Positions 41,727 through 57,578 of a DNA stretch of 64,000 nucleotides are shown here, one piece after another (position 1 is the stretch's first letter; each line of letters begins with the position of its first letter). A model generated the notes under the pieces. It was given only the letters and a program-made list of their open reading frames with translations, was not told where the DNA came from and ran no database searches. The DNA comes from Croceibacterium sp. TMG7-5b_MA50 (GTDB taxonomy: Bacteria > Pseudomonadota > Alphaproteobacteria > Sphingomonadales > Sphingomonadaceae). The position numbers and the translations under genes were made by a program. The stretch is taken from assembly GCF_039830145.1 (NCBI RefSeq), contig NZ_CP156082.1:1878001-1942000 (forward strand). The letters run 5' to 3'.

Positions 41727-44315
<2,589 letters not shown>

Positions 44316-44326
44316 TCACCCACGCC

Positions 44327-45031
44327 ATGATGATGACGCTGATCGTGGTGCTGGTCGTCTCCGGCGCCCTGCTCGCCGGCGCGGCATGGGGCCTGTTCGG
44401 CCGGCTGCACGAACGCACCGAAGGCTTCCTGGTCGCGCTGGCCGGCGGGGCGCTGCTACTGTCCGCCGTCAGCGAGCTGATCGTCCCCTCGATTGAGAGA
44501 GGCAGCCTGTGGAGCGCCACGCTGGGCGTCGCGGCGGGGGCGATCGTCTTCACCCTGGCCGATTACTGGATCGACGTGAAGTGGGGACGGGAGTCAGGTG
44601 GCGGGCTGCTCGCCGCAATCACGCTGGACGGCATGCCGGAGAACCTGGCGCTGGGCGTGGCCCTGATCGGCGCCGGCGCGCCGGAGGTTGCGGCGCTCGC
44701 CGGATCGATCCTGCTGTCCAACCTGCCCGAAGCGGCCGGCAGCGCGCGGCAGATGGCAGACGATGGACGATCCAAGGGGCGCGTGCTGGCGCTGTGGGGC
44801 GCGACGGCGGTGCTGCTCTCGCTCTGCACCATCGGCGGCTATACCCTGCTGGAGACTGCGGGCGAGGAGGTGCTGGCGACGATCCGCTGCTTCGCCGCCG
44901 GCGCGGTGATCGCCAGCCTGGCGGTCGAGGTCTTCCCGCAAGCCTATCGCGAGGATCGCCATTGGTCGGGCGTGGCAACGGCGATCGGCGTGATCCTGGC
45001 CCTGGCGCTCGACACCATGTCTAACGGGTGA
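44327..45031 (+). CDS. ZIP-like membrane protein
   Basis: A 234-residue protein with about seven membrane segments, resembling the ZIP metal permease fold. The expected metal motif HxxPEGxA is altered: TLDGMPENLALG near 108 and LLSNLPEAAGSA near 137 keep the Pro-Glu pairs but lack the histidines. Metal transport is therefore uncertain. Three consecutive ATG codons begin at 44327. It is divergent from gyrB and followed by a hairpin that belongs to the next, opposite-strand small gene. Confidence 0.7.
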   Translation: MMMTLIVVLVVSGALLAGAAWGLFGRLHERTEGFLVALAGGALLLSAVSELIVPSIERGSLWSATLGVAAGAIVFTLADYWIDVKWGRESGGGLLAAITLDGMPENLALGVALIGAGAPEVAALAGSILLSNLPEAAGSARQMADDGRSKGRVLALWGATAVLLSLCTIGGYTLLETAGEEVLATIRCFAAGAVIASLAVEVFPQAYREDRHWSGVATAIGVILALALDTMSNG

Positions 45032-45040
45032 GGCGCATAC

Positions 45041-45070
45041 GAAAACGGCCGCCCCTGTTGGGGCGGCCGT
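45041..45070 (-). terminator. Strong intrinsic terminator of the 27-residue gene
   Basis: ACGGCCGCCCC (45045-45055) and GGGGCGGCCGT (45060-45070) form a perfect 11-bp stem with a four-base loop. On the minus strand it is followed by TTTTC, the expected orientation for stopping the small gene that ends at 45099. It may also reduce readthrough from the ZIP-like gene, which ends 13 bases before the stem on the other strand. Confidence 0.85.
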
Positions 45071-45098
45071 CGTCCGCATCAAGTTGCGACTAAGTCGC

Positions 45099-45182
45099 TC
45101 AGTGCGGCCACATCATCGGGTGACGATGCGCACCGGCGCTGGTGATGTAGGCAACAAGCATGCGCTTCAGAAACTTGGTCAT
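45099..45182 (-). CDS. 27-residue small protein
   Basis: A short frame starting MTKFLKRMLVAYITSAGAHR and ending HPMMWPH, too short for usual gene calling. AGGAGG lies seven bases before the ATG, a leader hairpin (45203-45229) precedes it, and a strong terminator follows 29 bases after the stop. The peptide has a basic start, a short hydrophobic centre (MLVAYITSAGA) and a His/Trp-rich end, suggesting membrane or metal interaction. I recognise no family. The complete leader-ORF-terminator layout makes a real gene or a dual-function RNA likely. Confidence 0.65.
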   Translation of the reverse strand: MTKFLKRMLVAYITSAGAHRHPMMWPH

Positions 45183-45202
45183 GATACTACCTCCTGCGAA
45201 AT

Positions 45203-45229
45203 GATGCCGCGGCTGTTACCGCTGGCATC
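45203..45229 (-). promoter_or_regulatory. Leader hairpin of the 27-residue gene
   Basis: On the minus strand GATGCC-A-GCGG pairs with CCGC-GGCATC, ten base pairs with one bulged A and a six-base loop. It ends about ten bases before the AGGAGG ribosome site. It may stabilise the transcript or control translation; this is inference. Confidence 0.45.
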
Positions 45230-45340
45230 TTGCTGTTTGCTAGCCAACCCGATCGATCCCGCGATCAGGCGAAGCGTTGTCTCTCGATCGTCTATCTGGC
45301 GCAGGGGACACGAATACTCAAATGCGAAGAGGCGCACGCC

Positions 45341-45359
45341 TGTTGCAAGCTTTGCAACA
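45341..45359. promoter_or_regulatory. 19-bp inverted repeat upstream of guaA
   Basis: TGTTGCAA-GCT-TTGCAACA is a perfect palindrome with eight-base arms, the size and symmetry of a dimeric repressor site. It lies 101 bases before the guaA ATG and about 160 bases before the divergent 27-residue gene, so it could serve either. The regulator is unknown. Confidence 0.5.
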
Positions 45360-45459: not shown

Positions 45460-47040
45460 ATGACCAGCATCGCCGACTCCCAGCCCGATACCATCCTGAT
45501 CGTCGATTTCGGCAGCCAGGTGACCCAGCTGATCGCCCGTCGCGTGCGCGAGGCCGGCGTCTACTCCGAGATCGCCCCCTTTACGCAGGCGGAGGAGGCG
45601 TTCCACCGGCTGGACCCAAAGGGCATCATCCTGTCTGGCAGCCCGGCCAGCGTCCCGGCGGATGGCAGCCCGCGCGCACCGCAGGTGCTGTTCGATAGCG
45701 GCCTGCCGATCCTGGGCATTTGCTACGGCCAGCAGGTGATGACGCATCAACTCGGTGGAGAAGTCCGGCCGGGTCACGAGACCGGCGAAGGTGGTGAATT
45801 CGGCCGCGCATTCCTGACCGTCACCGAACCCTGCGTCCTGTTCGACGGGCTGTGGCAGGTGGGTGAACGGCACCAGGTGTGGATGAGCCACGGCGACAAG
45901 GTCACCCGCTTCGCCCCCGGCTTCCGCATCGTCGCCACCAGCGACGGGGCGCCTTTCGCGCTCATCGCCGATGATGAGCGGCGCTATTACGGCACGCAGT
46001 TCCATCCGGAGGTGTTCCACACACCCGATGGCGCGCGCCTACTCGCCAACTTCGTGCGCCATGTCTGCGGCCTTGCCGGCGACTGGACCATGGCGGAGTT
46101 CCGCCGCGCCAAGATCGAGGAGATCCGCGCGCAGGTGGGCGATGCCCGCGTGATCTGCGGCCTGTCTGGCGGTGTCGATTCGGCGGTGGCGGCAGTGCTG
46201 ATCCACGAGGCGATCGGCGACCAGCTTACCTGCGTGTTCGTCGACCACGGCCTGCTGCGGCAGGGCGAAGCGGAACAGGTCGTCGGGCTGTTCCGGGGTC
46301 ATTACAACATCCCGCTGGTCCATGTGGATGCGGAGGCGCAGTTCATGGACGGCCTCGCCGGCGTCACCGACCCGGAGGCCAAGCGCAAGTTCATCGGCAA
46401 GACCTTCATCGACGTGTTCGATGCAGAGGCCAAGAAGATCGGCGGGGCCGATTTCCTGGCGCAGGGCACGCTCTACCCCGACGTGATCGAATCGGTCAGC
46501 TTCACCGGTGGCCCATCGGTGACGATCAAGAGCCACCACAATGTCGGCGGCCTGCCCGAACGCATGAACATGGCGCTGGTCGAACCCTTGCGCGAGCTTT
46601 TCAAGGACGAGGTGCGCGAACTGGGCAAGGAGCTGGGTCTGCCGCCCGCCTTTGTCGGCCGTCATCCCTTCCCCGGCCCTGGCCTCGCCATCCGCATTCC
46701 GGGCGAAGTGACGAAGGAGCGCTGCGACATCCTGCGCAAGGCCGACGCCATCTACCTGGAGGAGATCCGCGCCGCCGGGCTGTACGATGCAATCTGGCAG
46801 GCGTTCGCCGTACTGTTGCCGGTCAAGACCGTGGGCGTGATGGGCGACAGCCGAACCTACGACAATGTCTGCGCCTTGCGAGCCGTAACCAGCACTGACG
46901 GGATGACCGCCGACGTATACCCCTTCGACGGCCAGTTCCTGAGCCGGGTATCGACCCGCATCGTCAACGAGGTGCGCGGCATCAATCGCGTGGTCTACGA
47001 CTACACCAGCAAGCCGCCCGGCACGATCGAGTGGGAGTGA
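45460..47040 (+). CDS. guaA: GMP synthase (glutamine-hydrolysing)
   Basis: A 526-residue enzyme making GMP from XMP, ATP and glutamine. The N-terminal class I amidotransferase has nucleophile Cys 88 in [13 protein letters not shown] and the catalytic His and Glu in [11 protein letters not shown] near 180. The ATP pyrophosphatase P-loop is [18 protein letters not shown] near 235. The C-terminal dimerisation domain ends KPPGTIEWE. The ATG at 45460 is preferred; the frame is open upstream but passes through the operator-like palindrome. It is transcribed alone. Confidence 0.97.
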
Positions 47041-57165: not shown

Positions 57166-57578
57166 GGTGCCAGGGGGCTGGGCAGCCGCGGCGCTGATGC
57201 GTCGAGGAAAGTCCGGGCTCCACGAAACAAGGGTGGCGGGTAACGCCCGCCCACGCCTGCCGGTCCGCCGGCCGGCGTGAGGGACAGTGCCACAGAGAGC
57301 AGACCGCCGATGACGCCGATTCCCTGAGTCGGTGTACAGGCAAGGGTGAAAGGGTGCGGCAAAAGCGCACCGGGGCTGCCGGCAACGGCGCCCGCGACGG
57401 CAAACCCCACCCGGAGCAAGACCGAATAGGGGTCTCGCGCCTGTTCGCAGGCAGGGGTGTTTCGCCCTGAGAGGCCCGGGTTGGTTGCTAGAGCGCGCCG
57501 GGCAACCGGCCGCCCAGATGAATGGCTGCCCCTCGTTTTTTACGAGGACAGAACCCGGCTTACAGGCCCCCTGGCACC
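57166..57578 (+). ncRNA. rnpB: RNase P RNA, bacterial type A
   Basis: The catalytic RNA that cleaves 5' leaders from pre-tRNA. Universally conserved segments are present in order: GAGGAAAGTCCGGGCTCCA near 57204, ACAGTGCCACAGAGAGCAGA near 57284, GGGTGAAAGGGTGCGGCAAA near 57345, GAGCAAGACCGAATAGGGG near 57414, and ACAGAACCCGGCTTACAG near the end. Both ends pair to form helix P1: GGTGCCAGGGGGC at 57166-57178 with GCCCCCTGGCACC at 57566-57578. These ends set the boundaries, about 413 nt. Coding frames across it are spurious. Confidence 0.95.

Follow-up and report, generated by a model that had tools for sequence, protein, structure and literature searches.

A putative micropeptide family beside guaA in the Sphingomonadaceae and its promoter element in common with the alpha-r8 small RNA

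The 64,000-nucleotide stretch of Croceibacterium sp. TMG7-5b_MA50 DNA analyzed here (the window) very probably contains a micropeptide gene of 27 codons, divergent from guaA. The frame is judged to be a gene because homologous frames exist in related genomes and because selection acts on it at the codon level. The reading we favor, with a probability of about 0.6, is that the product is a new micropeptide which is co-regulated with the alpha-r8 sRNA and which is most likely cationic, amphipathic and located at the inner side of the membrane. A preliminary description of this DNA had already proposed the peptide; the promoter element, the putative shared regulon and the synteny with guaA go beyond it.

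The locus comprises the following features:

45319..45357, minus strand: composite promoter element of 39 bp, TTGC-N7-GCAA-N14-TTCGCATTTG, also kept at the loci of the two closest orthologues
45316..45321, minus strand: putative -35 sequence TTGAGT, which overlaps the element at its end and was assigned from its distance to the -10-like block, compared over 42 copies
45293..45298, minus strand: putative -10 sequence CAGATA, with a 17-bp spacer (CARATA in three orthologues)
45203..45229, minus strand: leader hairpin of 11 pairs with one bulged base, from sequence and fold
45190..45195, minus strand: Shine-Dalgarno sequence AGGAGG, from sequence
ATG at 45182, TGA ending at 45099, minus strand: 27-codon gene, MTKFLKRMLVAYITSAGAHRHPMMWPH, with homologous frames and purifying selection
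45041..45070 (stem 45070-45045), minus strand: GC-rich, intrinsic-terminator-like stem of 11-12 bp with the tail TTTTC, from sequence and fold
45460..47040, plus strand: guaA (GMP synthase; Pfam GMP_synt_C and GATase), the divergent neighbor that marks the syntenic locus
44291-45031, plus strand: ZIP-like transporter gene, convergent with the peptide gene (weak Pfam match, below cut-off)

The peptide gene and its homologues

According to the preliminary description, a leader hairpin was followed within 190 bases by AGGAGG, then by a frame of 27 codons and a terminator stem, and all four were found in that order on the minus strand between 45229 and 45041. The terminator had been described as carrying a T-run; the GC-rich stem was confirmed but its tail has only four T, and the consensus scan, which needs five, accordingly did not list it, nor did it list a sigma-70 promoter at the peptide unit. 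The extent of 190 bases proved too short, as the promoter element lies further upstream and implies a longer RNA. We infer a start near 45286, which would add about 57 nt of leader and give an RNA of about 245 nt.

Homologous peptide frames were found in at least 25 genomes from eight genera of the window's family. NCBI taxonomy places Croceibacterium in the Erythrobacteraceae (Sphingomonadales); the wider family sampled here is, as we take it, the Sphingomonadaceae of GTDB. At E ≤ 0.01, profile A2 had matches in at least 24 of the 397 genomes of the family, a small share of it, one of them (G174) being doubtful, and a pattern rule applied to 80 guaA-upstream regions lacking an earlier match yielded two further members (L069 and L070); the total of 25 leaves out G174, a partial match, and includes these two. 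The genus is represented by four further genomes: two have homologous frames, at 89% and 81% identity, and no peptide match was obtained in G003 (77% complete) and G004 (90% complete). Another genus carries a frame at 42% identity. A single match was found in the window's own genome (3.24 Mb, two contigs).

The two homologues from the same genus, the 42% relative and two extra copies described below have the same length, an SD-like stretch and a GC-rich stem after the stop codon. Across the 26 homologous loci, a purine-rich stretch precedes the start in most cases and is weak in a few (e.g., L060). Most of the homologues are also followed by a comparable GC-rich stem, none being seen for L025 and L062. 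The frames are 26 to 29 codons long, with one of 23, and the consensus reads M-x2-F-x-K-R-x4-Y-x3-A-G-x-Y-P-x-P-M-x-W. All 23 distinct sequences have M1, and nearly all have K6, P22 and W25. The end of the peptide had been called rich in His and Trp; it is His-rich only in the three closest orthologues, while P-x2-W is widely kept.

Selection was assessed in seven close pairs (190 codons), which were chosen by hand and are possibly not fully independent. These showed 31 synonymous and 11 non-synonymous changed codons (pN/pS 0.11), with 8, 4 and 35 differences at the first, second and third codon positions, respectively (Fisher p = 4e-14, from rounded counts). Change in the alternative frames of the same pairs was mostly non-synonymous, with the exception of the antisense frame whose third positions coincide with those of the gene, which gave 29 vs 14 but is interrupted by stops. 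The bias was weaker in the window's own trio, where the synonymous/non-synonymous counts of changed codons were 5/3, 2/5 and 6/5 and pN/pS was about 0.17, 0.43 and 0.20; only the first of these pairs is among the seven. A search in relatives and a comparison of synonymous with non-synonymous change had both been proposed earlier as checks on the peptide, and between them, homologous frames and codon-level selection strongly support the small protein. The refuting outcome named there, close relatives that lack the frame, did not come about in two of the four other genomes of the genus.

A class-level profile search of 385 genomes gave no credible homologue outside the sampled family of bacteria. 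Four genomes matched, of which two are family members, and the other two matches, which sit in frames of 495 and 527 codons, were taken as chance. Seven of 246 genomes matched in an order-wide sample, G044, G496 and G514 being taken as chance, and a pattern scan of the collection gave ten matches, of which L148, L154 and L155, from other groups, were treated likewise. A first profile at E ≤ 0.1 had matched 47 of 397 genomes, with the weak matches mostly noise; L005-L009, L012, L014-L018, L020, L029, L034, L046, L049 and L051 were dropped on reading, and L010, L011, L036-L039, L041, L042, L045, L047, L052 and L063 were also left out of the homologue set. A plasmid search with one homologue other than the window's peptide found no match. 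No family was returned by Pfam for six members, by NCBIfam for three, or by PHROGs and PADLOC for two, and two matches in a PDB profile search were discarded as being at chance level. The literature search, whose coverage of subscription journals is poor, found no paper on the peptide, the locus or the element. With database scans that cover few members, the peptide appears to belong to a micropeptide family that was undescribed before.

The position beside guaA is shared by the homologues. In all 13 peptide genomes checked by coordinates, guaA is adjacent and divergent; L069 and L070, which complete the 13, were themselves found starting from guaA. In all 11 members in which both genes were located, the peptide and guaA are divergent and no more than about 1.6 kb apart, and guaA reading frames are visible beside the peptide in several of the remaining 12. 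By eye, L040 and L065 also have a frame similar to the ZIP-like gene of the window.

In Croceibacterium ferulae (G001), short contigs carry two additional, diverged copies (L157:13012-13092, plus strand, and L158:915-995, minus strand), comprising peptide, leader, terminator and a degenerate element with two mismatches. The frames near them look plasmid- or DnaE2-like, by eye only.

The promoter element and what it precedes

Alignment of the three closest loci revealed two conserved blocks that precede the start codon by roughly 150 bases, and comparison over all loci gave the full element TTGC-N7-GCAA-N14-TTCGCA-N-TTG. When the inner gap was left free between 10 and 15, it was 14 in all 41 listed matches, which came from 19 of 20 member genomes. 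Exact copies are present in 197 of 298 family genomes and in 68 of 96 genera, while the reversed pattern used as a control had a match in one genome among those viewed. In 80 further guaA regions, searched with up to two mismatches, the element lay on the guaA-divergent strand in 27 and on the other strand in none, and the reversed pattern was absent. The window's genome holds the exact copy at the peptide and one further copy with one mismatch.

In 42 aligned copies a CATAT-like block follows at a fixed distance, with A at its second position in 38. TTGC, GCAA and TTCGCA are invariant in these copies by construction of the search; the inner TTGC at positions 22-25 is partly kept (T 34, T 17, G 28 and C 23 of 42). 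TTGC-N7-GCAA forms a T-N11-A dyad, centered about -64 from the inferred RNA start. An upstream T-N11-A dyad together with an activation site near -35 is the typical geometry of LysR-type activation.

The element precedes the peptide directly or stands before the gene upstream of it, and it also precedes other genes. Among 72 distinct exact copies, a non-random sample made up of those with enough sequence in the collected loci, 34 lie before the alpha-r8/MmgR (suhB) sRNA (29 assigned by sequence string and five by Rfam), nine before the peptide, 10 before urcA-like genes, and 11 before a second family of 27-residue peptides; eight are unassigned. One of these eight, L068, has a UrcA-like frame downstream. 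The suhB family RF00519 scored above its gathering threshold in five of 12 and five of 13 loci tested, including one in the window's genome (L205). That alpha-r8 sRNA (L205:1399-1475, minus strand) lies between the element copy with one mismatch and a CDC48-family AAA ATPase gene, and the order of element, sRNA and ATPase gene is similar in several relatives. The ATPase is regarded as a neighbor rather than a demonstrated target of the element, since the alpha-r8 sRNA, which ends in its own terminator, intervenes.

A C/U-rich, anti-SD-like motif was found in 18 of 41 element-driven leaders lacking the first alpha-r8 string, compared with four of 41 upstream controls. Seven of the 18 are alpha-r8 variants, which leaves 11 of 34. 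Folded alone, the leaders of L169, L171, L188 and L180 present the motif (CCTCTCC) in a hairpin loop. Similar C/U-rich stretches are seen in the leaders of L044, L033, L218 and L219.

In Caulobacter, SisA, an alpha-r8 RNA, is reported to act through a 10-mer with an anti-SD signature and to be countered by a sponge RNA upon carbon depletion, and the promoters of the four siblings SisA-D reportedly have no common motif (PMC12559287). In this bacterial family, by contrast, the alpha-r8/MmgR sRNA (RF00519) and the peptide have the 39-bp element in common, although the peptide locus is no alpha-r8 RNA: RF00519 (41 bits) gave no match there in the window or in L001. In S. meliloti, mmgR is reported to be bound and repressed by PhaR, whose motif has GC-N3-GC (PMC12542648). 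Compared by eye with that motif, the element has the spacing GC-N7-GC and does not contain the PhaR/AniA palindrome YGCR-N-YGCR, and PhaR was rejected as the regulator.

UrcA-like genes (TIGR04433) stand near the peptide and behind the same element, while the peptide itself does not match TIGR04433 and the window's locus has no urcA. In Caulobacter crescentus, urcA is reported to encode a periplasmic protein and to be strongly induced by uranium, and the published Caulobacter motif, CATTAC-N6-TTAA, differs from the element described here (PMC8963506). Copies of the element downstream of the peptide in long stems (L033, L060) had prompted us to consider it as the terminator of a lost urcA; this was set aside because of its fixed spacing and its position before the alpha-r8 RNA, and also because no extended stem was seen by eye in C. 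ferulae.

Proposed role and alternative explanations

One regulator binding tandem TTGC/GCAA dyads, in a LysR-type geometry, might co-control a small regulon of the peptide, urcA-like genes, the second 27-residue family and the alpha-r8/MmgR sRNA. The RNA would begin near 45286 and be translated, and its 5' hairpin may stabilize or tune the message. With less certainty, residues 2 to 16 or so would form a cationic amphipathic helix that lies along the cytoplasmic membrane at its inner side, the conserved P-x2-W tail might serve as an interface or partner-docking element, and the peptide could modulate an envelope protein when a nutrient or envelope change switches the alpha-r8 regulon on.

The middle of the peptide had been described as hydrophobic and is better called amphipathic, residues 1-16 having a mean Eisenberg hydrophobicity of 0.17 and a moment of 0.41. 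Over the first 16 residues in the 26 loci the moment ranges from 0.35 to 0.70, so that the window's value is modest, these being raw values read without a null distribution; net charge ranges from +1 to +4. A surface-bound amphipathic peptide is hence plausible, and a classical single-pass membrane protein less so. SpoVM of Bacillus subtilis, with 26 amino acids and an amphipathic, membrane-surface design, is similar in length and make but comes from a different phylum and context. In the alphaproteobacterium Rhodobacter, CcaF1/DUF1127 proteins are short, basic and tied to anti-SD-type sRNAs. The peptide is likewise short and basic, and it has no DUF1127 match, as Pfam returned nothing for the six members scanned.

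The transcript might instead serve chiefly as a regulatory RNA that is controlled in the same way as the alpha-r8 sRNA and yields the peptide as a second product, which is the dual-function RNA that the preliminary description had offered as an option. This would agree with the strong folding of the 205-nt peptide region, which beat 200 of 200 dinucleotide shuffles (z -5.44, with -5.34 in a second calculation), with the promoter element held in common with the alpha-r8 sRNA, and with the anti-SD-like motifs of element-driven leaders outside the window. However, the window's own leader (L175) lacks the C/U-rich motif, Rfam found no match at the peptide locus in the window or L001, and the hairpin diverges greatly in sequence between genera while the peptide is conserved. 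The hairpin is indeed kept in three species, where 33 of 33 cells are paired, but with two double-sided changes, a result equaled by 98 of 500 shuffles, the covariation is no better than chance. We regard a dual-function RNA as unlikely. Elsewhere in the window, an ordinary class A RNase P RNA (RF00010) is located at 57170-57578 on the plus strand.

Still less probable in our judgment is a type I toxin, i.e., a small membrane-active peptide silenced by an antisense RNA or by leader structure. Its size, its cationic amphipathic N-terminus and the additional diverged pair of copies on C. ferulae short contigs would suit such a toxin, but the window's genome gave one match only, the gene keeps its synteny beside a housekeeping gene, and the promoter type is common to urcA-like genes and an sRNA. 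Nor was an antisense promoter listed, in a weak scan that missed the proposed promoter too. That the frame arose by chance within a conserved regulatory or terminator region is very unlikely given the codon selection in the seven pairs and the length and protein profile conserved across genera, even though 27 codons are few and the window's own trio shows weak selection. Least credible is a leader peptide that attenuates a downstream gene. A terminator-like stem does stand directly after the short frame; yet the conserved tail has no run of one amino acid, and this reading was rejected since the next gene is convergent (plus strand, 44291-45031), which leaves nothing to attenuate in the window.

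The guaA-divergent region and the second 27-residue family

A UrcA-like gene lies upstream on the peptide strand, within 260 nt, in 15 of 26 homologous loci, and a hydrophobic peptide of 27 residues in six of 26 (one read in a longer frame); neither is found upstream of the window's peptide, its two orthologues or the pair of extra copies. When four of the UrcA-like neighbors were scored against TIGR04433 (25 bits), three passed (68.7, 60.7 and 64.3) and one fell below (19.8).

A hydrophobicity rule applied to the guaA-divergent strand of 80 regions (L067-L146) returned 16 short frames, of which 14 are exactly 27 residues long and the other two 31, while the opposite strand gave three entries of other lengths in two regions. 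Among the 27-residue frames, that of L133 does not resemble the others. At even odds, in our estimate, the guaA-divergent region is a micropeptide locus at which two unrelated families, one amphipathic with P-x2-W and one hydrophobic and both nearly always of exactly 27 residues, would be placed together with UrcA under one tandem-dyad promoter, which would also drive the alpha-r8 sRNA. If this is true, a single regulator would tie a set of membrane micropeptides to anti-SD control at the post-transcriptional level. The element connects the UrcA family and two micropeptide families with a regulatory RNA that is already known, which makes the regulon testable, and naming the regulator or the partner of the peptide would help to explain the action of alpha-r8 RNAs and of UrcA proteins.

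Peptides of the second family (like MRTTASQFLAFLAAASISSLMLGAAIA) are hydrophobic, nearly always exactly 27 residues long and often found behind the same element, and they resemble a signal peptide that lacks the mature protein behind it. Further loci of this family are L048, L050, L061, L062, L065, L176 and L201.
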